Shown here one piece after another: positions 5,054 through 52,300 of a stretch of 64,000 nucleotides of DNA. The notes below the pieces were generated by a model. That model saw only the letters and a list, made by a program, of their open reading frames with translations, did no database searches and was not told where the DNA came from. The stretch is from Thunnus maccoyii. Taxonomy: Eukaryota > Chordata > Actinopteri > Scombriformes > Scombridae. The DNA is taken from positions 8,355,155 through 8,419,154 of the forward strand of contig NC_056544.1 of NCBI RefSeq assembly GCF_910596095.1. Reading direction: 5' to 3'. The position numbers and the translations under genes are program-made. Position 1 is the first letter of the stretch. Each line of letters begins with the position of its first letter.

Positions 5054-8000
5054 ATGTTTTCTTTGACAATGACCGTACAGCCACAGGTAGGAAACCAAGT
5101 GACGTTAGGCCAAGCTAACATTAGCATTGTTGTTGTTTTGGTCCCAGCCCGGTGAAGTTGAGCGTGCTAGCCAGCTAAGTTAACCTTAGCTCTTATGATC
5201 CATACTGCTGTCGACCTTTCCTATTGTTTTTTTTACGTCAGTAGACATTGTGTCAGTATGGTTGTCTTGAACTGAAATAAATGTGCCGGCCGTTGAGAGG
5301 AGCTAACTTGTTTTAGCCGCAGTGCTCTGTTGAGTTCAGTGTGCCCTTAGCTGCCAGATGGGAAACTAACTGCGTCAGTGAGCAACATGCTTGACTACTG
5401 ACGGCTGACATATAAACAGCAATTAAACCGACTTTTTTTTACTAATAATTGATAATTGCTTATGAATTTAGAACTACATCATAAGCTTGATTCAGTTCAT
5501 GTAAGCTTGTAACAACAGCCGACTGTTATGCTTCACATGTGAGCAACACACATGTGGGCTACTTAACCAATAGGATCTCTGTTCATAATGGTAACATATT
5601 TCTTCAATATTCATAACATGCTACTTCACTCACTGTTGGCTTATATGTGATCACAGGTGACTGTACCCCTTAGTCACCTCCTCAACGTCCTCCACTCTCT
5701 GAAGAGCTCAGTGGGGAGCAGCAGCAGTGCCACCAGCAAATCAAGAATACACAAGGAGCATGCCTCAGACCCAGAACTACACTGCTCAGAGGTACTCGTT
5801 AGTAGGAAATAGTCTTCCAAGCCCTACTCGACTTGAGTAGCAAAAACCTGTTCCAGAATAACTTTGTGGGAAATATAACACACATCTCTTACATAGAAGT
5901 TTGTAACTCATGTGTCTGCAGCCCATGTGGAACCTGCGGGAGCTTGGCTTATCAGACCTGGGAGCACAGCAGCTGGATGAGCTGGTGAATCGTGTGTTAC
6001 CGCGCCTCAGCCCGCAGGAGGCGCCGCTTCCATTTGGTATCAGCGGTCAGACAGCCTGGAGGACTTCTCATCTCTCTACACCCTCCTTTTTCCACAACAA
6101 GCATGGTAGGGATGTGTATCTTTGTTTTGAATAAGCCTCCCACCTGTTACCTTGTATCCACTTCAGTAGATGTGCCTGTCTTCTGCTCATTTTAAACACA
6201 GTGTTGTGCATGGAAATGCAGAGTGTTAGTCAGGAAACTGGTTAGTAGAGGTGGTGAGCATTTGTAAGAAGATTCTGATGCATTTTCTCTTTTGTGATCA
6301 GTCTAATAGGCTACCAGATGACAGTCTTAACAAAGCCTATTGCTTTCATATCCCCTTTTTCCTGAAGGTGTTACAGTAAACAGTGTGTTCATTTCTTTTG
6401 TATGTGCAATAAACATCATTTTTCCTCTGTTTCCAGGGTTCTCATGTGGTCCCATGTCAGCCCCAGTTTTTTCCAGGCAGCATCCCTTATCTCTTCAGTC
6501 TGTCTGCACAGAGCTACAACACTATCCAGGTAACTATGAGTTAGAAACATGTATAAATAGTGTAATAGTTTATCACTGATATAAAGCTTTGTACTTTGTT
6601 GTTACTAATGAAGGAGTAAATTAAGTTGTTTGTATGTAATTTGAATGCAGATACAGAAACAGTACTCCTGAATAGGGATGCATGATATTATCAGCACGTC
6701 ATCGGTATCGGCCGAAATGAACATTTTCTGCTGATTATGAGAGGCTGGTTTCTTGCCTTCTCCTCTGCTGCCTGACTGTGCTTCCCTCCACGGACTGTTT
6801 CACCCTGACGATCCCGGTGCTTCCTCCGCAGGCTCCACTTCACTCAGCTGCCCGTCAGACCCGCTGCTTCTTCTAGTGGAGGCTAGCTGGCTGTGCTTCC
6901 CTCCGGTCATGCTGCGGCTAACGCTCTGCTAGCCTCTCAGCTAACGTTAGCCTCGGCTCTCCGTGCTCTCTGACGGGCAGCTTGAGTGGAGTGGAGCCTA
7001 CAGAGGAAGCACCGGGACCGTCAGGGTAAAATAGTCCGTGGAGGAGCTGGTTAGTCGGCTGCACAGATAGGAAACACCTTGGCTGACAGGATATACCACT
7101 CTGTTTGGAAAAAAAAAGCTTCTTCTTTTTGGTTTATAACGGTGGTTGACAATCAGCGTATAAGGTACATTACCACTTTCTGCTCCGGAGTGTGGACCAA
7201 AGATTAAATCCTACACATTAATCCTGTCTGTATAATGAACTCAAAGAAAACTCTACTGCTCCACCCACTTGGCAGGTTCATTAAAGTTTTAACACTGAGC
7301 TCCTGAACTCCAGTCTTCTTAAGTTCTTCCTTCATATATTGTCTTTCTTGACCATACCTAGTACAATCTATGCTTGCATGCATAATAGTCTCCTCAGCCA
7401 GCTGGGAAAAAAATATGTGCATGTATCAGTATCGGCATCGGCAATCGGCCACAATGAGTTGGAAATATCGACATATCAGATATCGGCAAAAAATCCAATA
7501 TCGTGCATCCCTACTCCTGAAAGAATGACAGATATTCCAGTAATTGTGAAAATGATCCATTTAACTTTATTTTTGCTAATCCAAAAAAATCATATGGTGT
7601 AGAAAAAGTTTTTCTTTTTACTTTACTTAAACATCATCTACTTACTGCACATGTCAAGTCTGGGTCCAGAGCAGAGGCTTTAAGACTTTAAGGAGCAAAA
7701 CCAGAAGACTGCAGTCAGCCTTCGACCGCCCGATAGAATCTGAAGGGTTTACACCATCTTTTATGAAGGTAAAACATCATCCATGTGTTAATAAAGGACA
7801 CAGTTTTAAACTGTTTAACCACTAAGTGTCACTATGTCAGCACTAACATGTTGACGTGACTAAGGCCATGATTGTACAGGATGCTTTCTTTCTCTCTGTG
7901 ATGGGCAAAACAAAGGTGTGCATTTCTTCTATTAGATCTGCTGCAAACAAAAAAAAAAGAGCAAAAGTAAATTGGCAGTCAGTGTTTCTGCCCAGCTGGT

Positions 8001-29900: not shown

Positions 29901-32900
29901 TCATTTGAAACAAAATGGGAGGAATACGCAGCATGGCGTCTGTCCAGATATGTTATTTGGTGCTCTGTGTCCAATAAAACACATTTTTAGTCACATTTAT
30001 GGCTCTCCAACCTTTTTAGGGGAAATTCTGAATTTTATGCAAGTAGCCTACCACATCTTATGTTACTTAGTTGTCACATTCACATTTCTGTACTGTAAAT
30101 AGCAACGTCACGCCATGTTTACTGTCGGTGGGATTCAGACTGATATGTTTTAAGCACCCTTGTAAGACGCTGTGTAGTGGCATCACTTACTAGTCCATCA
30201 CTTGATGTTTAGTGACTGTTTTAGCCGTCTCCTGGGTGGAGTATAAACGTGTTAATGGTGTTAGGCCTGTCATGAATCTGGCAGCCTGACTTTCCACTTG
30301 ACCTCCATGGAGGAAGCGTAATGGGTTGCAAACACCCTTAAAATGACCAGCAGGATACATTAAAAGTTTGCACAAACATTTCAACAGTGATGTCCACATA
30401 GTTTGTGAAAGACATCCAAAATTACTCCAAAAGAAATATGATTTGAAGTAAGAGTGTAATGACATAAATGAACACTTCAACATTTTTTGAAATAGGCTTA
30501 TCCGCTTTCTTCCCGTGGTTAAATGAGAATATCGATACCATACAGTAAATATGAAACTAAGACTGAAAATAGAGGGAAACAGCTAGCCTGGCTTATTTGG
30601 AGTCTCCCTGTAAAAAATGAAAATTGGTTTTATACTTCAGTTTTTGTACAGCTTAATTAGTGAACTTCACAGGTGCTGGCAGCCAATTTTTGTTACTTTT
30701 GGTCAGACCCATGCTAACTGTTTCTCCTGTTTGAAATCTTTGTGCTAACTTAAGCTAACCGGCGGCTGGCGGTAGCTTATATTTACAGTACACAAATCAG
30801 TAATGAATGAGGTAAAGAGAAGCCTTATATTACCATTATATAATTCATATAAACACTAATTATGATTTCAAAATGATTCAGTATCTGTTTAATAGTTCTT
30901 GTACCATGTCAAAAATACAAGTCTGTTTAGATTATGAAATATCCTCCAATATTTCAAGTTAGCAATCTGTAGGGAATTTGAGGTGAAACTGCAGTTTCCA
31001 GAATACAGATTAAGCTTCACATACTACAACAAAATCCATCGATGGAACTAGGCTTTATTGTTTTCCAGGAAAACCTAAAATAATAGAAAAGGAATGTAAA
31101 GCATGTCTTGTTTAATTTAAGAGTGAAACTTATGAGAGGTGCCAAAGAGTAGAACTGGTTTCAAAAATCTTTTCACAACTCTAGTCATGTAATGTAAATT
31201 TATATTGATCTTGAGTAGGAAACTAACACTTTAGTGTTAGTTTAGGGGGGAACACACTGCCAAAGCACATGAGTCAAGGAAGCAAAGCTACACCATCAAA
31301 CACTGATGGGAAAAGCCAAATGCATGTTAGTGATCTTGCTCTGCATGGTCTCACAGCTGAGTGGTGGCTCTGACAGTCGCTCTACGAGACATCTTCAGTG
31401 CTTTACTGACAGACTGCTCCATTTCTACGTTTTGGCTGAGGTTTCCACTTCTCACCCTGGGAAGAATAAAGTCTCAGACATTCTGTAATTGTCCTTGAGA
31501 CTGGACTGGACATTTCCACCATGGCAAGAAGCTGAGGCGGAACAAATGGCACATTCTAGTATATGGAAATGATATTTGCGGTGCGCAGCAGCAGCCAGCA
31601 CGAACTCCATCCAATTTTAAAATGAGGGATTTCAGCGTCTGCATGAGTCTTTATTAGTAATGTTTGTAAAGGCTTTGGCTCCTGTGCCTTAGCGGATTTG
31701 AGGCTTGTCAGTGTGCTGTGCTCCCTATAGGTCTGAAAGGGCAACCAGGTGTCAAACTCCCTCCCAGTTTCACTGAAACTTTATAATTGAATCTTGCAGA
31801 GCTTCTGACTTTCAGTGGAATTCCAGAGATTTATTAATGTCAAGGAGCTCTGAGGAGCCATGTGGAAGTTTCTGTTCATTCTGTTCTTATTTTACAGTAC
31901 ACAGTGGTGTGTTAAAAATGAACTAAGGGGAAGGAGAGTAGTTAAACTGACACTTAACTTCACATTCAACATAAATCTGCAATTAACAAGGAGGATGCTT
32001 TAATGATTTCTGTGGACAGGGGGTGCTATCGTATCTTTTCCTCCTAATCTACCCTCTATGTTGTATATACTTAACTCATCATGATTTATGCAAAATGTTC
32101 AGTTGATATGATGTTGCGCATGATGTTTGCATTATTGTAAGTTTTCCCTGATTCTATTCACTTATAATGAGTTGAGATTTTGAGATAAAATGACAATTTT
32201 TCCATTAAAGTAGTAAAGCTTTAGTCTTATTTGTTTAATGTCCCTCACAGAGGCAAAAACTGACATCTCTCACCCATGTGATAGACAAAGTTGGTCTCTG
32301 TTTCATAGGACGACGCCGGGGAGACAACATCTCGATCACATTCGTTGGAGCTGAATGACTCAGAGTGGCTTCTCCTCTTGCGGGCTGCGGTGACGCCATC
32401 GGCCTTCGTCGCCATCATATGCCGCAGGGTGTCGTTCAGATACCGATTCAGTAAACTGCTCTTGTACTTGGATGGGTGCGACGCGCTGTCGTCACTGTTG
32501 GCGGAGTCGGCCATACCCTGTTTCTTGAGTACACTCTTGTGGGAAGATGACCTGCCAAAGTCTGATTGGCTGATAGGTGTTTGTAAGGGACATTCTTCAT
32601 CTGCATTAAACAGAAACAAATGTAAGTAATGAATACTTAAACAAAACTGTGACCTATTTCAAATTCTACCAGTTCAAATGAACATATGAAAACACAAGAT
32701 GTTACAAATAATGATAACATTGCTGGTTCAGTAGTCAAAGTTATACATCTAAATCCAGTCTTCTGACGTTTGTTGATTCCACCTATGTAATAAACTAATA
32801 ACTTAAATACACCCGCCCTTACCATCTGAATTTGTGTCATCACTGCACACACTCAGCCTCTCAGCGTTTCCCTGGATGTATTTATTGTAGAGTTTGATCC

Positions 32901-33837
32901 TTAGGGCCCAGCTCAGGTCTGGCTGTCTCACTGTGTTCTTCAGCCTCCGCCGGGCATTTGCAAACCAGTTTGAAACCTGCACACATTCCATTGATACATG
33001 ACAGCACTGGCTTAATGTTAAGTGACAAAATATATCAACACAGCCCTGAGCATGCTAAACATTTTTATTTCACACCTCCATGACTTGCATGTGCTTGCCT
33101 CACCTGTACCAGTGTCATATGTGAGCCCAGAGCCAGTAGGACCTTCTCAGTCTTGGTGGGGTATGGGTTGTCCCGGTGTTTGTACAACCAATGTTTCAAG
33201 GGTCGGGCCATGTCCTGCAGCACCTGTCTCTTGTGGCGAACTTTGACCCCACCCAAACGAGACCTGGAGGAGTCAAGAATCACCTAATAGATTCACGAAG
33301 GCCACTACATTGCCTTTGTTTGGTACTATGATATTGATAAACCAAACATCTTGAAGCTGTTCTGCCTGCAAAAGCTTCTCCTAATCACATACATATGATA
33401 ACACAATATCATGCAATCAATCTATTATGGTAAATCTTAATCTTATCCTCCATGTCTAAAGAACTATAAAGAACTTTTCTATCCAAAAGACAGATCAACA
33501 ACATTTTAGCATGACATATTGTCTTTTAATATTAATATTAATAGTAATAAAACTGCATTCAATAATTGTAACACAGAAAACAACCCTTTTTTAATACCAT
33601 TAAAACATTAAACTGCATATTTCCAACACAGACAAAAGGGGCGTACCCATATCTTCTGTACTTTATGGGAGAGCTGCTTTCAGTGGTCTCCTGGCATCGC
33701 AGCAGGTCTGTGTTCTGCCCGTCTGTTAAATTGGTTTGAGCTATGTCTACACAGTTCAATCTGCTCCTCTCCTCTGCTCTTCTGCTGTCCTCCAAATGAA
33801 GCAGAGTGTCAGACGTCATCACAGCAACTTTGTTCAT
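26986..33837 (-). CDS. mkx: mkx, Mohawk TALE homeobox transcription factor
   Basis: Six minus-strand exons join in phase to 401 aa (human 352): 33837-33647, 33263-33104, 32976-32823, 32600-32274, 27643-27610 and 27325-26986. Exons 2-3 encode the TALE homeodomain, including [20 protein letters not shown], the loop [14 protein letters not shown] and recognition helix [14 protein letters not shown], followed by the conserved [14 protein letters not shown]. Exon 4 has [20 protein letters not shown] and a Ser-rich repression-type region. The 34-nt exon 5 was found by phase and similarity. Exon 6 ends [17 protein letters not shown], as in human MKX, but carries about 50 extra residues before it. 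Mkx drives tendon differentiation and represses myogenic genes. An in-frame Met 13 codons upstream is an alternative start. Confidence 0.94.
29450..29600. mobile_element. Family A MITE fragment in mkx intron 4
   Basis: It shares 'aagctaaccgtctcctggct' and 'agcttcatattgaacagac' with the copies at 55-56 kb. Only one end is present. Confidence 0.5.
30480..30840. mobile_element. Family A MITE copy in mkx intron 4
   Basis: The left end 'ggcttatccgctttcttccc', then 'gggaaacagctagcctggct' and 'gctaaccggcggctggcggt', recur in the other family A copies. The ends are diverged. Confidence 0.55.
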
Positions 33838-35900
33838 TCTTAAACACGCAGATTTTTCCACAATCAACAGGTGCATCAGCAGACTTCCAAATGTAAATGG
33901 ATGCAGTAGATTCCCATCCTGGATACACTTGATGTAAAAGTAATGAAAAAGAGGTGAAAAAGTTTCCCTTGGTCTTTTCTCTAAGCCCAGACGAGCAGCC
34001 GGAGTGGCCCGAGCAGACAGATGATGACAGTCTCACAGTTACTTATGAGAGAATAATGTTTGAAAAGTCAGAGGATGTTGTCTGGTTTAGTTGAGCTGCC
34101 TGTGGAGAGTTCAAATAACCTGCTGCTCTGCTGCCTATTGGCTCTCCTGCCGTCCAATCGCTTCTCTGGAGAGCTCTGTGAGGAAAAAGCTTGCTGTGCA
34201 GCAGCAGAAGCAGTGGTACCACCCCACGATATGCAAAATATTGCACATGTAAGAATATCAGCAAATGTGGTCATTAGATTTACTAGTGAGATTTTGTCTG
34301 GTGTGACTGCAGCCTGTGCTAAGCAGTTTGACATGCTCTCATATTTTCTACATGAGGCACACGAATCTCATGGAGCTTGTGGTTTTACCAAAAATCGCGT
34401 CAGCAAATAATAGTACATGTTTTACCAGGGGATTCTGGAAATTTATGGGTGTAATTACAAGGTTCCTAATAACCAGTAAAACCACCAAGCTGTGCCGCGT
34501 GGTAGGCAGCGGATCGTGGATTTCAGTACAAATTGGTCCATAATGAAGTCAACACAAGCACTGGAAAATGAAATCTATCTTTGCCTACATGTAATCTTCA
34601 GCCAGTGTTGCATGTCTGGGTCGCATATTTTTGAGTCTGTAAGTGTGTGGCCATGTGCATTTGAGTGTCAGAATTGTGCATTTTTTACACTGTCTGCAGT
34701 CTGAGCAGTGATAATCCAATAAAAATGCACATATTTGCCAGTGTCTCTGTTTTGTTGTTGCATTTAGAAACAGGGAAAAGTTATGAAAAAAACTGGGTGT
34801 GACAGAAGCTAAGCCTTGTCATTAATGTAACAATATGACAACATGTGGGCACTGGGCCCAACACTCAAGGACTCAATGGTTCAACTTTAGCTGTCAACCA
34901 CGTATGTTTTTCCTCTTCACATCTAAACATTCTTATGTAAGACTGTTTGGATATACAGTAATGACTTTGCCATGCAAAACCATAACTTGATAATCCTTAA
35001 GCAAACAAAAGTGATAAAATATGTTTTTGCTCTTCCTGCCTACAGTTGAAACTTTTGATGGTTATGGCCAAAGTCTGAGTGGCACTTGTTCAACCGTTGA
35101 ACATATTAAAGGACTTTATAACTCTCATCCCTGTTCATAATTCAGCAGTATCAGTGGGGAGGCTCAGTTTCAATGGTTTCAAAGCTGAAAAACACATGGA
35201 CCAGAAGCATCCCCGTTAGGTGCAGTAAATTCCTCGCTCACATTCCTCAGCAGTGGTTGGAGAATGCTACATGCTATCACACACCATTTACTCTGTCCCT
35301 CTGTGATATGTTCGCCAGCTCAACTGTTGATATTAGCTGGGAACACACCTACATTCAACAGCCAGGAGACCTGTAAAAACCGCTGTGGAAGGACATATAT
35401 CTCTTCTTGTTTGGATAGTTTGGCACATGTGTGTGTGTCTTCACTAGGCATCAGGCATAGGACCAAACATCTAACAAAGCGTATTGAAGGAATTGTTTTT
35501 TTAATATCAGATATCCAGAAGAAATAACTTTTGCTAATTTTTCATATTGACAGTTATTGTTAATATTTGTCAGTGGGCGTTTCATGCTTTTACATGCCAA
35601 CACTTTGTAACTTTTGCTGAACAGCGGCCACTGTGTCCACAAGTAGAAATCACAGGAAAATTCCCATGATTGTCTTGAGTCAGTTGTTGTAAAGCTGCAC
35701 TAATTGATATTTCTTTATCAACAATGGATCAAATTTGTGTAATGTGAAAAGTGTTGCTGGTAATGATGAATTAAGGCATGGAGATCTATCACTTAGCTAG
35801 TTCTCCTCAGATACAAAGTGCTTAGTGTCTCTCAGTTCAATGTTGAATTGCAACTTTACTGTTTTGGTGTACTCTCATCATTGTCATCAACCTTTTTTCA
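33838..35900. other. mkx upstream intergenic region
   Basis: This holds the expected mkx 5' UTR and promoter and the start of the mkx-mpp7 intergenic region. ORFs here are short and show no family signature. No repeat was recognised. Confidence 0.4.
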
Positions 35901-36099
35901 CAGTTTTGGCACAAAGCTCTCATGTAGGTAGGTGTTACAGAGCTGAAATCCCATTGGCAACTTTTGGAGGGACAGGTCGATGGTCTGGAAGTGCAACAAG
36001 CAGTTCAACTTACCATTGACCTGTCCCTTCAAAAGTAATTGGCCAATGGGGATGCAGTCCTATGACACCTGCCCACAAGAGAGCTTTGTGTCAGAACTG
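35901..36099. repeat. Foldback (hairpin) repeat, ~85-bp arms with a ~26-nt loop
   Basis: The arm 35901-35984 is repeated in inverse orientation at 36011-36099. Paired landmarks are 'cacaaagctctc' with 'gagagctttgtg', 'cccattggc' with 'gccaatggg', and 'gagggacaggtc' with 'gacctgtccctt'. This fits a foldback MITE. A transcript would form a long imperfect hairpin. Confidence 0.8.
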
Positions 36100-38473
36100 A
36101 AAAATTTAAGCAGCAAAACTGAAAAAAGTGACCACAAAAGAGAATTCCTGATCAGTAAAAGAAAAGTGGAGAATACTGTAATCAAATGTAGTACTCTTGT
36201 ATAGTTTTATTGTAAGTTTTTCTTTCTTTAAATTTATTTTTATTTGCTTTCAACCAACATTTTTTTTTTTTTGATTTTTGGGAGATTTTGTTCAATTATT
36301 ATGATACAAATTGAATCCCATTCTTCTGTTTTCTTACATCAAAATCCAATCATGTTTCTTCCTCGTCAAAATATGACATGCGCTTACGTAGGCGTGAACC
36401 AACCAGTTTCAACCAGTAATATCATGACATCCATCAATCAGTCTTTAACTTTTAGTGGAACAGAGCTAAGATTCATTATGACACGACCACTTTTCAACAT
36501 TCGAATCAAATTCCTCCCAAAGTTATGTCCGGCCTGTCTGTCCTGTTTCACTCAGAAATACTTCACAATACGGAAGTTAGATACTCTTGAAATGCCGTTT
36601 CATCTGGACTTCTCATTCGTAGGAGGAGGATTGTGTTATTTCTTTATTCAAAGGTTACGTATTCTCACTTTAATGTGTCACCATCACTACATAGTTGTTA
36701 GTAGATGACTTTGTCTTTGAATTTACAATACTTTGCATGTGAAAACCTTTCCCCTTCCTGATTTCACTTGGTTTAATTTACTCCCATATACTTTTAGCAT
36801 GTGCTTTACTGTGTTGGGTGTTTAAAAGTTATTAATATCTCATGCAACGATGCAGATATAGTTTAACATCACTCATATTTATTTTTACATACTTCAAATA
36901 GACAGTTACATGATTGAGCCAAATTATCCGAAACCAATTGACATCATACTTCTGTGTAATGTTTGAAGTGGGAGCTGCAGTGAACATAAAACGGTGGGTT
37001 TTCATTGGACCACTCTGGTGTCTTTAATGGCATTGTTATGATCTCAGAGGGTGTCTGCAGATTCTCAGTGGTGTGATGAAATTATACTGCCATGCTTGGC
37101 TGAGCTCAGGCTTTCAGGCCTGGCAGAAGTGTAACAGTGGTCCTGACAGTCTCGTTTGTACGTTTTGGTGACCAGACATGAAGACACACTGACGAGTGCA
37201 TCTCCACTCCTCCATCTGTGCTACCATCTTCTTAATGTACTGAATTGTGTTTGACATTGCCAAAGTAAAATAAATACCTGAGACTTTATGGTATGCTCTT
37301 TATCCCTGTAGCCTAATCCACCATGTCAAACCCCACCATGCTTTTACAGTATGCTTTTATGTGCGGTCGTAACTTTCTCCCCGTACGTCTGCGAAGGCCT
37401 GAGTCCCTAGAAAGCCATTACCGTCTCGCCACATCATGCTGCTCCCTCTTCCTCCCAAACACGACATGATAGACACATTAACACTCCTTCACACCCAATT
37501 GAGCACAGCATCCAAAAAGAAGAAGGAAACACCACAAATTTAGAGGAATGCAGCCATCAGAAAGTATTAGATTAGGCAGCTCGTGTGAAGGAGAACAGTA
37601 GAATGTGCACCCTACAGGCAGCAGTGATGCTCAAATATGAGTATTTGTTAATGGAGTGTCACTAAAGATGAGTTGCTACCAATTATTTTAAAATCTCTCA
37701 ATATTGCTTTTGTATAAAAAAAGAGCCCAGGATTAATGATCCAAAATAGAATATATAGTGTATAGTGCTAAAAAATACACAAAGCCTGTATTCTACCATG
37801 TCTGCTGTAATAATTGTGAAACATACACAGTGGTTAAAGCATACATACACAATATGAACACAGTTCTGCAACTTACAGCCATGAAACAGGTTTTCATTCT
37901 GCCTCATCTGAAGGATTTAATTAAATGTTATCTTGTGTCCCTATTTTGTGCAGCATGTTGTTGGCAAAACGTCTCCCTGACTGCTACTAATAATATTTCT
38001 CTGGTGTGCATTACAGTTAATTGAAGTGCAGCAGCTGTCAGAATAATTACATGCTGATGTTTGTGACTTGGCAGGGAAGGATTACACTCAGCCACAAGCT
38101 CTGGAGAGTTTACTTTTTTTTTTTTCTTTGTCCGGCGAGCCGGCGTTCAGTAAATGCCAACAGAAAAACTGGCTCTGAGACAGACAGAGGGAGAGAGAGA
38201 GAGAGATGGATTCTGTTTGCCTAATTAGCTACACACTAAGGGACACTATGGAAAACTGTGGTAATCCCAGGACTTGTTTACAAATGGGAATAAAATTAAA
38301 ATATGACAAAAATTAAATGTTCAGGGTGCTTTACATTTTACATATAATAATTTTAAACTTTAAATAAAAACATTCATATAATCCTCATCCAAGCACAACA
38401 CGACTGTGTTCTTCGACCAGGGGAAACTTCACTACACTGTAGTCATCTTGGTGTCTAAATAAAAGATCAAAGT
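36100..38473. other. mkx-mpp7 intergenic and mpp7 3' UTR
   Basis: No gene was recognised. The 154-codon ORF at 36244-36708 has no family signature or splice context. A pyrimidine run followed by a (GA)n run lies near 38113-38205. ARMC4/ODAD2, which sits here in human, is absent. Confidence 0.45.
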
Positions 38474-40285
38474 TCAAATCCAGCCGCTCAAATGACCACA
38501 ACTTCTCCGCGCTTTTGTTGGCGAGGAGCAAACCCACTCTGTAGGAATCCACTGGACTTCTGCCTCTTCTATCCGCTTGAGGTCTGCCTTGAGCTCTCTG
38601 AAAGCCATGGCGATATCTCCGTTAACAATCACCTTATCAAACAGATGACCGTAGTGGTTCTCCATGGTTTCAGCCGAGTCAAGCATTTCTTCAAAATCCT
38701 CCTCCTGTGAAAAAAAAACACTCGAGTAAATCAAATGTATTTTTAGAATGACAGATTTGGTTGTCAGTTGGTTTGATTTGTGTCACTGATGACTAACAGT
38801 CAAGCAAAAGAAGAAATGCGCTTTGATTTAGCATTCAGTTTTACCTCTACAGTGAAGGAGCAATAACAAAAGAAAGCAATGACATTGATGAGTTCATTGT
38901 TAAATTGACAAATATTGGTGATGGAACAGAATAGCTACAGTCTGACCACATGGTGACAAAAACATCCTCCTAGAAGTTGTTTTAGAAAAATCTGCACATA
39001 CTGTTAACAGGATATGGAACAGATCCACAGGACCGTTCAACTATACTGACCAAAGCGTAGCACATCGTTACATGCTGAGAGGAGAGGATAAGAAGCCTTT
39101 TCACACCAGCTGTAGTACAAGTCGAAAGCGCGGCCCTATAAGATATGCCTGAACTCTCCAAGGGCTGTGGTGCTTGGCAGTGGGCAACCTCAAGCTAGGC
39201 TGAGACACAGGTGTGTGACCTCATGGGTTTAATAAGGGCAACATAGGCAGCCAGGGTCAAACACTGAATGAGAAGCCAGATGGGCATTATGAAAGTGACC
39301 TAGCATATTTTTGTCCAGTTTAAAACACATGTACGGTCAAACATGCACTTTTTTTTTTATACCACCATAGCAACGTAAAACCCCTCCCTCATCTTTTAAT
39401 TCATTACTTATACACACACAGATGTAGCTCTTCAACGTCAGGAAAAAAAGTGTATTTACCTGTTAGTTACGGAACAAGAAACCACCCACCAAGCAGCCTT
39501 GTAACTCCCCCTGTCTCTTAAATGTCTCTTAAACGCAAACCACAGGGTCAACCACGAGCAAGGCAAGGTGTGTGCATGAGTAAGTGAATTTAGGTTTGTG
39601 TGTGTGTGTATGTCTGTGGGGTTGGGTGGGTGTATTGAGGCCAGGGTGTTTGACCTCACACTGCCCTGTTACAAGACACACATGCACCTGACTCCATATG
39701 TGTGTTTTGAGGGTTTTAAGTTCTAGTTTCTCTTACTGAAAAGATCCTGACTGGGTTCGGGTCCTCGTCACAGATGAATTTAGCTCTTCGTCTGGTGAGA
39801 CGTAGCTCCTCGATACGTGGGGGCTTCACAAACACCACATAGGGTTTGAATTCAGATGTGTAGGCATGCTTTATTTTCTGCAGTGACAAAGACAAACAAT
39901 TAGGAGATTAGATGTAGGCTGGAAGACCTATGTATACACCAAGCTTTGGGAAGGTTGGCTTACTGCTCCAAATAATCTATAAAGATTAAGTACACCGTCA
40001 CATTCTGCTAGAACCCTCCCTCCCAGTATATGTAAAAAATGCAACAGAGGAATTGGTGGTATGAGGGGGATCAAACAAGTGTGTGAGGCACCCCTTGTGT
40101 TGTGCGGTCATGTGCTTATCAGACATGAACAGCGACTGTTGGGCTCTCTGTGTCTTTGCTGAGAAGACAGGGAGTCCAGCAGGGCGTTAACAGTCACTAG
40201 AAGTACATTCATGCCCCTTTGAGAGAGTTTCCGCGTGAGTTGGTGTTGTAGCTTGGCTTATATCTCTCCTATAAAAGGCTCCTCT

Positions 40286-40329
<44 letters not shown>

Positions 40330-43300
40330 TTTGGGAAGTGCCTGGACATAGTCAAGTCAAATATCTTGTTAGGCTCTGACTATAGCACACTTATCAGTGT
40401 GGCGATGTGTTGTGTTTACTGCCACAGAAGAAGAATAAATCTCTTGTATACATACAATGTTCCCCATCACTTGGGAAGTCTTGCTAACGTTACTGGGCCA
40501 AATGTCAGCCAGTGTTCTGATTTTATATACTATTTTAACTAAGATGGTTACAGGTTACATATCGTTAGGTAGGGGCCTGAAAATTTGGCTTATTTTTGAA
40601 AACAAAAATCCTGTTTAATATAATATGCCATCAAGAATCTGTAACAATGTGTACAGCTATTAATAATGTTAAATGATGCTACTGAATATTTCTGTGTTGA
40701 AGATTGGTTATATTTACATGATGGAACCATGAGGACCTGCAATCCATGTTTCTGTGGGAACTAAATGTGATGATCAATAGGAGATTGTAAACAGCTAAAA
40801 ATGTGTGGCTGATTAACAGCCCTTACACCGTTTATTATACTGTTTCAATTTATCTATTCTCTTTTTATCTAAATTTGGGATTGGCCAGTTTCTTGTGTAC
40901 CACAGCCCTTGGCCAACTCCAACTCCATATGCTACCCACAATACCACTGGGAGGGCATAGGTTCAATCAGTCGTGCAGAGGTTCACACTAAACCCTCAAG
41001 ATCCCACTCCTGATTGTAAGACCAACCAGTAAGAGTCACTGTTGCAGCGACACAGACATGATCCCTCACTGGCTTCCCACCATGCAATCATTCCCAGCTG
41101 TGTGGAATGCCTGGCAATGTGAAATGAACCCTGCAGTGGTGGGACAGTGTTTCTTCTGTTCTTTTTATTTTTAGAATCTATCCATTTTATATATCTTTAA
41201 CTCAAAGAGCTCTGACAAGCTTTGGATTTTGAACTCATCTGTATGAGTTAAATGTACAGTAATTCATTGACTATTGAGACTTTTAGCAGATCTGTACATG
41301 TTGATTGAACTTAGATTTGTAAAATATCAGTTGAAAACAAAGTATAGAAAAAAAAGGGGAAGGGGTGGTGGGAGCTAGAGAAAAAAATAGTTGCCATGAC
41401 TTTTGAGCTTGAGAGACACTGTCTTCCTTAATCCATGACAAGGTTGAAGCATGGACATAATCTACTAGGTAAACACTGCAGATAAGTCATATATTTGAAT
41501 TCCAACTAAAATATAGACACTTCGTGGTTAACAAGAAAGAAACTGCCAGCGGTGGAGGGAGTCTATATACCTGACAACGGACTATGAATTGAGGCAGAGC
41601 AACTCAATGTTACTGTCTTCAAGGAGGAGAGTGGAGTGTAGTGAGGATTTTCCCTGCTGAGCTACAGCACCAGGAGGTGAGTTGAAATGTCTTTAATTAA
41701 GTCTATTTCCATTAACCTTAGGTGTAGTAATGTAATAACATTAACTATGTAGGTTGTGCTTTTTAATAGCCTGGAAAGGCTAAATTCGTGGCTTTGATGT
41801 TAAGCTATCATTTCCCCCCCTCTGTTATGCCCATGACCTTGTTCTGAGACTCATGATGGCAAATTTCATCAGTCATGCTTTTGATAAAAAGTATAAAATG
41901 TAAGTAATGTAATAAATGTTTATCCGATTGGTTTAGTTTTTAAATGTGACTGCAATATTCATTTTTTATTTCATACCCCACTCGCTCAACACCCCCCACC
42001 CTCCAACTGAACATGAGATAGCTAGTTAGCTAGTTTGCTAGCGTCCACTAACATCAGTAGCTGTTGAGCCAGGTACACATTCAATGCTAAAAGTAGTGTT
42101 ACTCTGCTAAAGGCTCAAGGTTGTAATTCTTGCAGGGTAGTTGCATTATACTAGATATGTTTTAGCTAACCCTAACCCAATAAACTGACTGAGTGTATCT
42201 GAAAATTAGATGCGGAATAGTCGGTTTATACTTTTTTTTTGTTTGTTGTGTTTTGTAGCTAACAAATAACAGTGTTCTTAACCACTTAAACACACAATAT
42301 GTAATTTCAGCCGCTGTCTTTTGTTATTTGTCAATAACAAAAGACAGAGTGTGATGACGGTGTGAAGTAGCAAGGGATCATGGGAGTTGTTAAATAACCA
42401 GCTTCACCAGGATAGGATTACTCCAGTGTTAATCATTCGGGATGTTTTTATCGGAAGCCGAATTACCTGCAGAGGTCTCCTCCTCTCCAGAACAAAAGGA
42501 CCCGGTGATTACAGGTAAAAACACTGAATGAAGCTGTTTCACCTAAAAAATCAGTATTTCTCCAATGATGTACGGCGACCACCGGGCTGTTAGCCGAGCT
42601 GTTGCTAACACTTGTTCGGTTTATTTCTCTTATAACTTAAGATCTAGACGTTCGCCAGGTTTCTCACGGGAGCTGAATTATCCACAGAGGTCTCCTCCTC
42701 TCCAAAAACAAACATACAGGCAGATTAAAATCATTAAAAATACTAATTAAAGCTGTTTTACCTAAAAAACCAATATTTCTCCGACGATGTTCGGCGACCA
42801 CCGGACTTCCTGGAGGGGCTGTTAGCCAAGCTGCTGCTAACGTTTGCCCAGTTTATTTCTCTGATAATTTAAGATCCAGACGTCCAATGACTAAAATCCT
42901 TCTTCCGGCTAAAAGATATAGTTAAAAGTGACCTAAATTTATCATGAAAATGTGGCTTAAAACTGAATAAAAGTCAATTTATAACAGTTTCTGTGGAAAA
43001 ACCACAACGCAGATGTATTGTCTTGTATATGTGTAAGTTATTCTTTGGTAGATGCCATTGTAGTGGACAAACACAGCGCCACTGTATGCATCTTGTGCGT
43101 GTTTACTCTTTGGTAGAGGAGGTATGACGCCATTGACATGCGACCAAATGAAACGGTCTGTTACTTTGATTAAATTACAGATTTCTCTGGGTTTGAAAAT
43201 TGTTGGAAACATTTGGGATAATGTAAGTACACAACTCAACAAAATATATAACATAGGTCTAGTTGTTTTTAGACATTTTAATGTGGAATAATTACATATT

Positions 43301-46300
43301 ACACCTTTAATTGTCTAAAAAAGATTAATAATTTAAGCATTTAGGAAATAAATATGTAAATATTTGGGATTCAATTTTTGTAATACATTGTATTTTAACT
43401 AAACATGCAGTTCATTTTTGTTTTTTCTGTTTACAAATGTCAACAAGCACGTCCAGTTCATGAAGTGGAAATTCTCCTCCAATGGGAAAGGAAGAATAAT
43501 AGAGCATTATAAAGAGCGTCATGAACATCATCAGAGATGTTCAGGACTTGTCTGTATTTATGAAGACTATTTGAGCACATTTTCAACCCAAGCTGAACTT
43601 AAAAACCATTTGAAAGAATATGTAAAAGAAGGTCATGAAATTTTGACTAGGTCATGCTGTAATTTGTGTACATTCTCAGAGTCTAGTAACATTAACAAAT
43701 GTTTTGCTCATCTGAAGACTCATTGGTGGAACAGGGAAACAGTTAAATATCCATTTGCAGGTCGCTCTTTAAAGTCTAGTGTACTGACAACATTTATTGC
43801 TCATAGAAGCTGCTATGATAAGTTTTCCACCCTAAATAGTTTAAGACCAGAGCTTTTTCTACACCATACACTTACAAATGCGGTAATAGAAGAGGATTCT
43901 GTTTCTGATTATCACCTTCATATGATTCTGTCCCTGAGGCTGAACCTGCTCTTGAAAATGGAGAGTCCATTAAACATCAGTTGGCATCTTTATTGCTCCA
44001 CATGCAAACAATTTTACATCTTTCAAATTCAGCAATACAGGAAATAATTGATGAGTTATTTGACATTGGGGAATTTGCTTTATCAAAATGTCAAGGAAAT
44101 TATAGTGAAAATTTTGGAGTAAAGTAACTGTAGCTGATACCTCTATTGTAAAATCATTGTCTGATGAAATACAATCTTTGAACCCACTCAAATTTCTTTC
44201 AACAGAGGGGCCTTTGGGCTCAGAGTGTAAAAAAGTCATTTTATGGGAAGAACTTTACAGTTATTGAACCAGACGAGAATGTGCTAAATGCACAAGAAAA
44301 AAACATCAATTTGTTTATGTACCTATTTTAGATTTTTGCTAAGTACATTGTTGGAAAGAAGTGAGATTCTTCAAACATTACAGACATCCAATGAATGGGA
44401 AGGACATAACAGTTCATTTCAAGATGGTGAATGCTTTAAGGAAAACAAAGAATTCACTGAAGAATTAGGCATAGCTCTTGGGTTATACAATGATGATTTT
44501 GAACACTGTAATCCTCTGGGGACTTCAAAAAGAAACACAAGGTGTGTGGTATATATTGGGTGATGGCCAACTTACCCATAAGACTTAGATCAACATTATC
44601 ATCAATTCATCTAGCTGTATTGTGCAAAACTGTAAAAAAAATACAGTTACAGCAAGGTTTTTGGAGTCTCTGATGAGAGATCTTCAGCATTTAGAGACCA
44701 TAGGTGTATTTGTATAAAGACTTGGGTCTTACGTCAAAGGTACTGTTTTGTATGTGTCTGCAGACACCTTAGGTGCACACTCACTTCTTTCTATGTTGAG
44801 AAATTTTGCAGATTTTGTTTGGCTAACTGTATAGATATTCAACAGCATGATGTCAGAAGTGGGACTTTAACTATCAGTAAAACACTATAACACTAAAATT
44901 GTTTGTTGAAGCTGTTAATGTGCCTAAGACAACTGATGCCTCATGTGTTGATGGTTTGAAGAAAGACTGTCCTTTAAGCAGACTTGCCCACTTTCATCCT
45001 GCAAAAGGGTTTCCACCTGATTTATTGCACAATGTATTGGAAGGAGTTGTACCTGTGGAACTATGCATATGTCTTTCAGATCTGATTGCTAAAATGTATT
45101 TCACATTAAATGACCTTAATGATAGAATGGCATCATTTCCCTTTCAATTTTATGACAAAACTAACAGACCTCAGACAATACAAACAAACTTTTCAAAAAA
45201 TGGAACAATTGGTGGCAGGAGACGTGAGAACTGGGTGCTTCCATGACTTCTTCCACTGTTGATTGGCCACCATATTCCAGAGAGTGAAAAAACTTGGTCT
45301 ACAGTCCTTGAATTGAAAGACAGAGCTGTTATCCATTCCCTCATTCACAACAGAATCCCTGTGCTACCTATGAGCCAAAATCTCTGACGACAGACAGTTG
45401 CTCTTAGAACTATTTCCTGGTATTAAATTACACCCTAAACATCATTATATTGAACATTATCCTGTGCTGATCAAGAAATTTAGTCCACTAATCGAGTTCT
45501 GGACATTACAATTTGAGGCAAAACATTCTTTCTTTAAAAAAGTGGTTCACAATGCTGGCAACTTCAAAAATATTCTGCACACCTTGGCCACAAGACATCA
45601 ACTGATATTAGCATATTATTTGGAGATGCCAACTATTTTCAAACCAAAAATTGAGACTTGGTGAGTATCAGTTGTATCTGTGTAGGCATCTTAGATACTG
45701 CTATCAGAGAGGCAATATGAAATTAGGAGTGATAGCAGCTTTCCTTCGACATGGTATGCAGCAAGGGGGATGTAGTCATTCAGACTGTCAGGATCAACAA
45801 ACACAGTTATCACAGGGTGTCTTTTGGCAAGCTGGTAACACCTGAGATGCTCCAGGAAGGCTGCTGTGACTATTTCTATAATAAATGATATGCAACCATA
45901 CACTACACAGATCTCTAGTACTCTCCCAAAATCTGGCAGTCCACTTGTCTGTCCAACTGAGAGCACCATTCCTTTAGACTATTTTGTCCCATTTAGGTAA
46001 GCAATGTAGGTGAGTGAAACAGAGTCCAGACCTTTAAACTTATTCCATGTAGCCTCTCTGATAGCAGCATCTAAGATGCCCACACTGACAGAACTGATAC
46101 TCGCCCAGTTTCAGTGCTTGGTTTGAAAATACTTGGCATCTCAAAATAATATGCCAATATCAGTTGATGCCTTGTGGCCAAAGTGTGCAGAATATTTTTG
46201 AAGTTGCCAGCACTGTGAACCACTTTTTTAAAGAAAGAATGTTTTGCCCCAAATCATTATTGTCCAGAACTCAATTAGTGGACCAAATTTCTTGATCAGA

Positions 46301-49300
46301 ACAGGATAATTTTCAAGATAATGATGTTTAGGGTGTAATTTAGTACCAGGAAATATTTCTAAGAGCAACTGTCTGTGGTCAGAGATTCTGGCTTGTAGGT
46401 AGTACAGTGATTCTGTTGTGAATGAAGGGCTGGATAAAAGCTCTGTCTTTCAATTCAAAGACCACAGACCAAGTTTTTTCACTCTCTGGAATATGGTGGC
46501 CAATCAACAGTGGAAGAAGCGCCCAGTTCTTATGTTTATCGCCACCAATTGCTCTATTTTTTTGAAAAGTTTGTTTGTATTGTCTGAGGTCTGTTAGTTT
46601 TGTCATAAATTGAAAGGTAAATGATGCCTTTCTATCATTAAGGTCATTTAATGCAAAATACCTTTTAGCAATCAGATCTGAAAGACATATGCATAGTTCC
46701 ACAGGTACAACTCCTTCCAATACATTGTGCAATAAATCAGGTGGAAACCCTTTTGCAGGATGAAAGTGGGCAAGTCTGCTTAAAGGACAGTCTTTCTTCA
46801 AACCATCAACACATGAGGCACCAGTTGTCTTAAGTGCATTAACAGCTTCACTAAACAATTCTAGTGTTCTCAAAGTTAAAGTCCCACCTCTGACATGCTG
46901 CTGAATATCTATACAGTTAGCCAAACAAAATCTGCAAAATTTCTCAACATTGAAAGACTCCAGTATCCAGCAAGTGAGTGTGCATCCAAGTTGTCTGCAG
47001 ACACTTACGAAACAGTACCTTTGACGTAAGACCCAAGTCTTTGTACAAACACAGCTATGGTCTCTAAATGCTGAAGATCTCTATTCAGAGGCTCCAAAAA
47101 CCTTGCTGTAACCATATTGTTTTACAGTCACAATACAGCTCAATAAATTGAGAATAATGTTGATCTAAGTGTTTTGGGTAAGTTGGCCATCACCTAATAT
47201 ATACTACACACTTTGTGTTTCTTTTTTGAAGTCCCCAAAGTATTACAGAGTTCAAAATCATCAATGTATAAGCCAAGAGCTATGCCTAATTCTTCAGTGA
47301 GAAGTTTGTTTTCCTTAAAGTATTCACCATCTTGAAATGAACTGTTACAACCTTCCCGTTGGATGTCTGTAATGTTTGAAGAATCTCACTTCTTTCCAAC
47401 AACGTACTTAACAAAAATCCTAAATAGGAACATAAACAAATCAATGTTTTTTTTTTCTTGTGCATTTAGCACATTCTCAACTGGTTCAATAACTGTAAAG
47501 TTTTTCCTATAAAATGACTGCCTTTTACGTTCTGTGCCCAGAGGCCCCTACGTTGAAGGAAATTTGAGTGGGTTCAAAGACTGTATATCATCAGACAATG
47601 ATGTTAAAACAGAGGCATCAGCTACAGTTATTTTCTTCCAGAACTTTCACTATAATTTTCTTAATTTTTTGATAAACATGTGAAATTGTTTGCATGCAGA
47701 GCAATAAAAATGCCAACTGATGTTTAATGGCCTCTCCATTTTCAAGAGCAGGTTCAGCCTCAGGTACAGAATCATATAAAGGTGATAACTCAGTATCAGA
47801 AACAGAATCCTCTTTATTACTGCATTTGTAAGTGTATGGTGTACAAAAAGCTCTGGTCTTAAACTATTTAGGGGGAAAACCTTATGATAGCAGCTGCTAT
47901 GAGCAATAAATGTTGTACACTAGACTTGAAAGAGCAACCTTTCAAGTGATTGCAATATGATTGTCCAACATTCTTCTTCCTTACAGTGGACCTTATTAAC
48001 ACTTTATACTGAACAATACTAGAATTACAACAACTAGAATAATGGATTATAAATTGGACTAAAATGTATTTAAACAGTGGTTAAAAATACTGTTATTTGT
48101 TAGCTACAAAAATACAACAAACAAACAAAAATGTATAAACCGACTATTCCACATCTAACTTTCAAATACACAGTCAATTTATTTGGTTAGGGTCAGCTAA
48201 AACTTAGCTAAATCACCTTTATGATGGTTAAAATATACAGTTTTGGTTTTGTTGTGTTATAAGTGGTGTTGCTGCAGATTGTGATGTTGAATTTTATTAC
48301 ATTATAAACTGTGGACAAAATACGAGAAACACCTCTCAATATATTCTAATTCAACAGATATGTGCAGAGATAAGGCTGCACAAAGAAGGATGTGACACAG
48401 CAAGGCACATGTCTATACTGACACACCCCTGCGTAGGGCAACCATCAATGCTCCTGGTGGAGTGCGCCCAACACCCACCAGAGGTGTGCAGTCCATTTTC
48501 TCATAGCCCTTGCAAAACGCATCGCCAATCCAATGAGCGAGCCATTGAACTGACAATGGAGCCACCTTGGTTCACTGTCTGTGGAAGACAGATTCAGTCA
48601 AACTTCCAAAGGTTTGTCCTGTTGTCCCAGCAACAGCAAAGTGCAACAACAGGACACAAGATGTGAAAAACACCTCCTCTCTTATTCCCCCTGAGAGGGG
48701 GAAAAAGGCTCTCAGGCCAATAATAATCCTAAACTGGAGGGAGCATGCTGCTGGACTGAAAAAAAAACAATAGCAGCTCCACTGCACCCCTATCCTCATT
48801 AATAACCTGAAAGTGCACAGGCCGAACAATCCCCCACTCTGTGGGCAGAGCAAGGGGCTAAAAAGGGGTCGTCTTCACTGAAACAAAAAATTCAGGTCTG
48901 TCTGCTCCAAGGGCTCAGGGGGTGGGCCTGAGGGACCTTCTGCAACCATCTGGAGATTCCACTGTAGAATGAGGCAACAGGTGGGTTCTCAGTCTGTGGA
49001 CATCCCAGAGAAACCCCTTTTACAAGCAGATGGCTTGGAGCTATGGAGCAGTCGGGGCAATCCTGACCAGCCACATCGCCACCCCAAGGTAGACGTGGTG
49101 AAAACTCCCCCAGGCCCCAACCAACATCATCCGAATCAGGTGTGAGGACTACTTGGTGCCAGGGCACTCTGGTACCACCACTACACCATACCCTGCCCCT
49201 GTGGGGCTTCTGCACCATCAGCTGCAACAGATGACCTGGGTGATGCAGTCACAGTGTGAGTGAATGCATCCCCCTTGAGGGGAGGCATAACTCCCTCGCA

Positions 49301-52300
49301 GGGAGATCCAGCATCCTCCCTGCAAGCAACCAGGCCCAATGAGGCCACTGGCTACACCTTCCATGTTGAGCTGACAGAGCGTCCCATTCCCATCTGTCAA
49401 GCAAGCATACTGAAAAACGGACCTCATATCCGCCACATCCCGGAGATGACAGCTCCTGTGACTGTGCACCTGGTAAATGGTAAATGGACTGCACTTATAT
49501 TGCACCTTTCTAGTCTTCCAGCCACTCAAAGCGGTTTACACTGCATGCCAGTGCCACTGCATGTATATGCCCAACAGATGAGTCTAGCCAAAGCTGGTAG
49601 CAGGTATCCCACTCAGTCCAAGTAGAAACCTGGAGAAGTATGAGGAATGTGGCCACTGTAGTCTGCACACAGTTCGGCTTGTCCTGCTGTAGAACATGCC
49701 AGCGAGCGAAGCAGTGTAGCTAGTGCCAAGCCTGAACAGCAGGTGCTAGCCGGTTAACATGTATGTAGAGCTAGCTTGTGTTAGCAGATGATGCAGCCTG
49801 AGCCTAAAAGGCAGAGTGGTCTCCACCGTAGGTCCTCTGCTTTGGAAGCAACATTGCGACAAACCCAGATGTATTTCACAACCAGCGTGACTTTGTTGAC
49901 CATGCTTGAAGCAGTGCTGCTAACTCATGCTAAACCAGATGGCAGGTGCTGGCAGGACATGATGCAGCCAGAGTTAGCCAGTCTATGTTAGCTAATGACG
50001 CAGCCCGAGCAGCAGTAGCCCAGTAGCTGAAGTGTGTTATCACGGGCAACGGTGACATGAGGCCCCAGCCTTGGACATGACGTTGCATGATTACCTAGAT
50101 TGGGGTAGAATGAACCAGTGAGGGAAGCAGTGTTTCTAGCTCATGCTATGCCAGATAACAGTGCTAGTAATTCTTTCTTTCTCTTTTAGTAATTCCTTTC
50201 TTGTTTACCACAAAGTGTTTATATTTTAGTTAGAAGTCGAGGATAAGACTTATCTGCAGTGTATAACTAGTAGATTATGTCCTTGCTTCAACCTTGCCAT
50301 AGTTTAAAAAAGACAGTTTCTTTCAAACTCAAAAGTCACTGCAAGTATTTTTTTCTCTAGCTCCCATCCTCACCTTTATTCTATGTATTTTTTCAACTAA
50401 TAACCCAAGTTCAATCAACATGTACAGATCTGACAAAAGTTTCAAATAGTCAACACAATGAAAGTTTACCTTTTGAAACTCAAACAGTTGAGTTCAAAAT
50501 CCAAAGCTTGTCAGAGCTCTTTGAGTTGAAGAGAAGAAGTAGGTGGACATAACTAAATGGGGCTGTAATGTTTTACAGTATACTCACAGTTAACATTCTT
50601 TATTCTAAAGTTTGCATAAAACATGATTAATTTTTCAGAGACAGATTGATGATTTTAGTGTCTGATTCTGATTGTTCTTATTGTCACTGTTTCCTTTGCT
50701 TCAAAAGCCATCCAACATCATTTGATTCTCATTTATTTGAAGTGATAATCCTTTCTTAATAACATATTACTCACACTAGGGTGCACGTCCAGAAGGCACA
50801 CCTTGCCCTCTGCCATCACTCTGTGAACAGAGTCCAGACTTGTTCCGTAATAGTGGCCTTTGAATATCCCATATTCTATAAACCTAGAGATAGAAATAAA
50901 CAGGGACAGACAGACAGGAAAGCCAGATAGACACAATAAAATAGTAGAAATGGCGGACATCATTCTCATTAAAAGGGAGAGGAAGGGTAAATTAATAAAA
51001 CACACATAGGGCTATTTTTAACACCATGGGAAAAAAACCTCAAAGGCTACACCTGCGTTTATACCTGTGATTGAGAATGGCCTCTTCAAACATGAGAACT
51101 GATACAAAATGATAATCCATCCCTTCTTTCTCTTGCCTTCTCTTCTCACGTGTGGTGTCTGAAAGAGAAAAGAATGGGAGGCTGACGACAGCTTTAAAAA
51201 GATGAGAAACCGTTTAGTGTGCTGGATGTGAAGGTGACAGTTATGAGACTTGAAGATGTCTGTCTTACGCGGTACAGTGACGCCATAGCGGTCAGGGTCG
51301 GCGATCAGGAGCCTCCTCTTCAGTTCATTAACGCCAACGCCACTGGGCCCTCAGGACAAAGATCAAAACACTGTGTTCTGTATGCGGCTATTCATTCCCA
51401 ATATCACTGTGTACTAATGTTTTCCTCACGACAAGTCCAACATCAAATAGGCTCAGTGATCTGGTGACACATCTGTCTTTATCATCAGAGAAGGAGTTGG
51501 GGAGTAAGAGAGTAAGACAGACAGAGCTCTGATTTCATACTGATTTCAGTCTGAAAATGATTCTCCAACCAACCCTGCTCTTTTTCTTTGTCTGTGTCTC
51601 TCTATCGAACGTTTAATGCTCCTATACCCTCTGGAAAATACATAGCATCACATCTAAATGTGACATCTGCAAAGCCACACAGTATCAGTGTCACTATAGT
51701 GTAGGATGCACAGGATGAAACACACACACACATACAGTGTAGCATCTGGGATTTTCTTCTAACGCAGGTTTCTCCAGCCCCAGATTGCATCAGACTCTAA
51801 TGGAGCGCTGTCTGAAAGTAGGATTCCTGACATACCTGCCTTTTCCATCACAGCGTTGCATGAGCTTGACACATTACAAAATATCAAGTTTATAGACTCT
51901 CCACTCTTACACTGCTAATGTCTTTCGCAGCTGCTCCACAGAGCTGAAGAGGTGCATCATCAGGCACAGTGGATACTTTCTTCTGCCCTTTTTTTTTTTT
52001 CAAGAGTTACACGATCTGTAGGGCTTAAAGTGGCTGGCACTCACTTTCACCAACTTTCCTGGTGCAGAATGGTCTATTGTTTCATTCAAAGTGCATATGC
52101 AATGCAAACAAAAATGATACATTTCCAACCTGGTCAAACATTATCCAGCTGGTCCTGTTTTAGCAATCCAGGTTTTGGTTTTCCTGTCTATAATTCTCAT
52201 TGCCAATAAGCTATATATTCTTAATGATGACCTCCGGTCAATGAAGAGCCTTCACAGCAGACAGTAAAACGTAATCCAGAGTCGGGGTAAGCTCCAACTC

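Follow-up and report, generated by a model that had tools for sequence, protein, structure and literature searches.

A decayed transposon present twice, in opposite orientations, within an mpp7 intron of Thunnus maccoyii, with a long predicted RNA hairpin

Inverted pairs of Alu copies within introns provide a precedent for the formation of double-stranded RNA (dsRNA), as set out in excerpts of PMC13189227, and EnSpm transposons of fishes have been described inside introns (excerpts of PMC3485254). Rearrangements that leave inverted arms are described as well: excerpts of PMC10622511 treat fold-back inversions and template-switch inverted duplications, and those of PMC2621351 the model of microhomology-mediated break-induced replication (MMBIR). 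Here we report two inverted copies, L (left) and R (right), of what is, by its sequence, one decayed transposon, lying in a single intron of the gene mpp7 of Thunnus maccoyii. The stretch analysed, 64,000 nucleotides of contig NC_056544.1, is called the window below; an earlier note on it had described, in this intron, a transposase-bearing element duplicated in inverse orientation, and our analysis supports that claim. The structure has the look of an unremarkable local rearrangement, old and of a known kind, with an unusually long predicted hairpin. Its probable history, in our judgement, is one insertion, decay, and then an inverted partial duplication of the decayed element in place.

The genome searched for other copies comprises 782 Mb in 54 contigs; names such as C13 and C4 denote contigs with such copies, and the match counts given for pieces of the element are lower bounds. 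The longest relative listed is at C13 (locus L009), followed by the one at C4, with shorter pieces at C4, C14, C3, C20 and others. The parts of the structure are as follows.

39878..50774, minus strand: mpp7 intron with the structure, 10,897 bp, with its GT donor at 50774 and its AG acceptor ending at 39878, in agreement with exon frames
41194..45726, plus strand: left copy (L), without the 48 terminal 5' nt and without everything 3' of 45726 (self blastn, C13 comparison, 5'-terminus alignment)
45727..50580, minus strand: right copy (R), 5' terminus kept at 50580, 3' end gone beyond 45727 (C13 colinearity, termini of other copies)
L 41194-41542 / R 50532-50193: outer block (5' end of the element), 80% identity, self blastn
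L 42152-42286 / R 48210-48076: third block, 88%, self blastn
L 43759-44023 / R 47940-47674: second block, 89%, self blastn
L 44079-45726 (plus) / R 47676-46039 (minus): main block, 88%, self blastn
L 44937..45094 (plus) / R 46663-46820: 158-nt run identical between the arms
45726..45727, no strand: central junction; in element coordinates R continues for about 314 nt past the point where L stops, both ends lying inside the transposase gene
45727..46038, minus strand: single-copy loop of 312 nt, R coding sequence; 45727-46601 is colinear with L009 3819-4675

Self-comparison, the check proposed in the earlier note, gives a strong inverse diagonal across 39-53 kb, listed also as 18 ungapped pairs. 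The outer ends are indeed homologous in inverse orientation, at 41194 and 50532 (previously 41199 and 50525), and the identical stretches of about 50 residues noticed in both cores correspond to the 158-nt run. Arms paired over about 4.5 kb are not what we find: the four blocks total about 2.4 kb per arm of about 4.5 kb, at 80-89% identity, and the unaligned remainder is largely private to a single arm (L 42290-43472; R 48358-50193), with deletions besides. In the whole window, self-blastn (E 1e-10, low-complexity filter on) returns seven inverse pairs of at least 100 bp, of which four are the L/R blocks; the longest of the other three measures 278 bp at 71%. R extends to 50580, 48 nt past the last base common with L, so that 41194-50580 occupies 9,387 bp of the intron.

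Sequencing is known to produce inverted duplicates as an artefact, and a chimeric or hairpin read could have created a false palindrome; near-identical arms would then be expected. The main block carries 144 substitutions in 1615 aligned sites (about 9%) and 13 gap events between the arms, and the two arms contain different insertions. A misassembled palindrome is therefore very unlikely.

The centre is, on the letters compared, a rearrangement break inside both copies and not a meeting of tails, because C13 is colinear with R through it and the 3' sequence is missing. L leaves the C13 alignment at L009 4133, 314 nt before R. The open frame of C13 runs about seven codons past the end of R, to a stop at L009 3796-3798; beyond this stop C13, C14 and C4 have further common sequence. 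When the window was searched with this 3' part of the element, taken from C14, C13 and C4, blastn at E 0.01 gave a single 77-bp hit, which falls in the unrelated insertion in R. Copies said to meet tail to tail near 45.72 kb are thus correctly oriented, but neither has a 3' tail and the break lies inside the transposase gene. The unpaired centre of about 0.3 kb is likewise real as 312 nt of single-copy sequence, yet it is part of R and colinear with C13; a separate spacer, or two element tails, was rejected as an account of it, since it belongs to the coding part of R and neither copy retains its tail. A 9-bp inverted repeat seen by eye around the junction (CTGCTATCA/TGATAGCAG) may be due to chance and is given little weight.

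L and R match each other best, at 88-89%, compared with 66-90% by piece elsewhere in the genome; the identity of C13 to L or R is 79-90% by piece. They also have changes in common: a frame-breaking TT insertion at L 44333 and a deletion of 5-6 nt (ACACAT) at L 44634 distinguish both from C13 and C4, and a frame-breaking TG insertion at L 45683 distinguishes both from C13 alone. Most other gaps between L/R and C13 are either taken as C13's own, with C4 siding with L and R, or unpolarisable. The 561 gap-free columns across L 44140-44780 include 11 that unite L with R, against 5 and 4 for the other two ways, and the L+R grouping has a bootstrap value of 88 of 100 (four-sequence tree, 200 replicates).

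These observations are consistent with the following course of events. A CACTA/EnSpm-like transposon would have inserted into the mpp7 intron in the gene's orientation, as R, and decayed there. An internal part of R would then have been duplicated in place and inverted, through break repair or a replication template switch, in an event that would also have deleted the 3' end of the element and left the 312-nt single-copy loop. The arms would have decayed separately afterwards, with private indels and insertions, and the inner arms may have undergone some gene conversion. As in the fold-back and template-switch cases of PMC10622511 and PMC2621351, so far as their excerpts describe them, the arms are inverted round a short single-copy centre, adjoining sequence is lost and the junctions are unrelated to the ends of the element; the loop at 45727-46038 continues the R arm, as such rearrangements have it. 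L and R differ from these cases in being interstitial and old, with decayed arms. Mis-paired gap repair via terminal repeats is not favoured: the terminal repeat at C14 is only 10 bp, and the start of L is not at the repeat.

Several observations weigh against the single in-situ duplication. The excerpts of PMC10622511 and PMC2621351 report inverted repeats or microhomology at junctions, and at the L/R junction no convincing fold-back-priming inverted repeat or microhomology is present; neither microhomology nor overlap of the arms is seen there by eye, a signal that later mutation could have wiped out. Only two of the shared indels can be checked in the second outgroup, C4, and in four gap runs C13 goes with a single arm (R in two, L in two), which we take to reflect private insertions in the opposite arm. 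At R 47674-47940 (267 bp) C13, at 88%, nearly ties with L at 89%, and in one piece of 136 bp the identity of C13 to L reaches 90%. Divergence is greater in the outer block than in the others (48/333 substitutions against 173/2008, p=0.001), although alignment error may have raised the outer figure; a single event would not predict this excess unless gene conversion accompanied it. Finally, differences from C13 show no excess at third codon positions (p=0.57 for L and for R). Since those between L and R are as even by codon position (45/464, 37/467 and 31/470, p=0.22; nine segments, frames set by hand), with no third-position excess, the test cannot separate the rival histories; all it shows is an absence of visible coding constraint.

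The chief alternative, which we regard as unlikely, is that an already mutated sub-lineage inserted twice, independently and in opposite orientations, and that both 3' ends and the first 48 nt of L were later deleted. It would account for the family's 5' region on the outer side of both copies and would suit the greater divergence of the outer arms; the shared indels could come from a common defective source moved in trans, and the codon positions do not discriminate. Such a history, however, requires two insertions and two deletions, and L is without either terminus. The matches listed elsewhere are few and fragmentary, with numbers that are lower bounds; even so, the two most closely related copies lie side by side.

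With duplication in place as the preferred account, the 158-nt run deserves separate attention. None of 2000 permutations of the main block reaches 158 nt; the longest identical run in them has a median of 44 and a maximum of 96. Together with the more diverged outer block, the run suggests that gene conversion has acted on the inner arms. For the run itself local conservation is an alternative, C13 being closer in the overlapping 136 bp, at 86-90%.

We folded the mpp7-sense sequence of 43700-48000, that is, the inner 4.3 kb with the inner arms. The predicted structure has a minimum free energy (MFE) of -2934 kcal/mol. It comprises 1902 pairs, of which 1759 join one arm to the other, and its longest uninterrupted helix spans 172 pairs; eight dinucleotide shuffles gave -1045 to -1100 kcal/mol, with longest helices of 12-16. 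A long imperfect RNA duplex formed by the inner arms in the mpp7 pre-mRNA is plausible on this model. Of the kilobase-scale dsRNA expected earlier, the part that stands is the one predicted for the inner arms, where the MFE lies beyond all eight shuffles; a duplex of 4.5 kb does not. As with the Alu pairs in the excerpts of PMC13189227, inverse transposon copies share one intron and dsRNA is predicted. Unlike Alu pairs, which are drawn from a very abundant family, L and R are the nearest relatives of one another, and their inner arms measure about 1.9 kb, against about 0.3 kb for Alu.

One could go further and propose a working long-hairpin locus, in which the duplex is kept for small RNAs or edited RNA and the 158-nt run is a selected core, held identical by conversion or selection, that would feed RNA editing or endogenous small RNAs. 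This would be compatible with an origin by duplication, and the identity of the run and the predicted 172-pair helix would both suit it; we nonetheless hold it to be very improbable. The remaining arm sequence differs freely, and C13 is also closer than average beside the run (136 bp, 86-90%), so that conservation or conversion explains the run; an Rfam scan of the window found nothing at gathering score. The locus is a documented case of a dead transposon turned into a long inverted repeat within a gene, probably without new transposition, and its predicted kilobase-scale dsRNA in a pre-mRNA would offer a natural substrate for the study of how vertebrates tolerate or edit long hairpins. This case in the mpp7 intron alone changes no general view.

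Transposons of the CACTA/EnSpm (CMC) family have termini that start with CACTR and end in its reverse complement, and they create target-site duplications of 2-3 bp. The present element fits a CACTA/EnSpm-like DNA transposon, an assignment based on its CACTG/CAGTG ends. In an alignment of R, L, C11, C12, C4 and C14, the 5' terminus reads CACTGTAAAA in C4, C12 and C14, whereas C11 and R have TACTGTAAAA, with T in place of the first C; on the plus strand the terminus of R is TTTTACAGTA, at 50571-50580, and L starts 48 nt inside the terminus. With the 5' terminus at 50580, the outer block is part of the transposon and C13 appears 5'-truncated; the C13 copy lacks the outer 285 bp common to L and R. 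Two candidates were set aside on the same ground: the outer block as a co-duplicated host flank, rejected by the comparison with C11, C12, C4 and C14, and the CACTGCAG motif at 41474 as a terminus, the true one lying farther out.

The 3' end, TTTTACAGTG, was found by its motif in C14 only, 47 nt past the last stretch common with C4. The C14 copy (L023) is the sole one with both ends, 7.1 kb apart; its terminal repeat is the 10-bp one mentioned above, and 2 bp (AA) agree as a candidate target-site duplication, an agreement frequent by chance. The main block of L has at least 8 matches in the genome and R 46039-47940 at least 20, with L and R themselves included. The CACTA/EnSpm (CMC) transposons of fishes likewise have CACTG...CAGTG ends. 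Intronic copies of fish EnSpm elements have been published (excerpts of PMC3485254). The difference is that the coding pieces here are unmatched to Pfam transposase models and that the frames in L, R, C13 and C14 are all broken. None of eight pieces, short and broken as they are, matched a Pfam transposase; the five from the window gave three sub-threshold unrelated names and the three from C13 gave none. A late coding piece of the C13 and C14 copies seems to resemble a SAMD3-like fish protein family, which would suggest that the transposon family carried an unusual C-terminal part.

Each arm also carries sequence of its own.

42290..43472, no strand: L-only sequence, absent from R and C13; later insertion or insertions
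48358..50193, no strand: R-only sequence, absent from L and C13; an unrelated dispersed repeat that inserted later

Within the L-only insertion, 42436-42883 consists of a head-to-tail pair of units of about 216-233 bp each, 75% alike. For the R-only insertion this genome yields at least 46 matches, a number that counts the insertion itself and for which 40 of 1608 first-look candidates were scored; many of the matches cover one internal stretch of about 80 nt.

The host gene is seen in minus-strand open reading frames (ORFs) that match L27, PDZ, SH3 and guanylate-kinase (GK) models of Pfam; the L27 and PDZ matches and two of the three GK matches lie below the gathering score. The GK exons, as ORFs matched to Guanylate_kin, are these.

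50.8 kb, minus strand: GK exon, profile 63-112, above gathering score
39.8 kb, minus strand: GK exon, profile 98-135, below gathering score
38.6 kb, minus strand: GK exon, profile 137-178, below gathering score

The 10.9-kb intron between two exons of the GK domain is thereby confirmed, at 10,897 bp with flanking exons that match the kinase. MPP5 structures match one host exon weakly (E 0.002). The name mpp7 comes from the earlier sequence note and from an mkx-like homeobox gene, which we take to be the neighbour of mpp7; the window has a Homeobox_KN match (Pfam) at 32803-33054.

Elsewhere in the window, self-complementary stretches resembling miniature inverted-repeat transposable elements occur at 35894-36104 and 6785-7044 (219 and 278 columns, 74% and 71%), and 6673-7514 also matches a locus on C12 (L024) at 79%.

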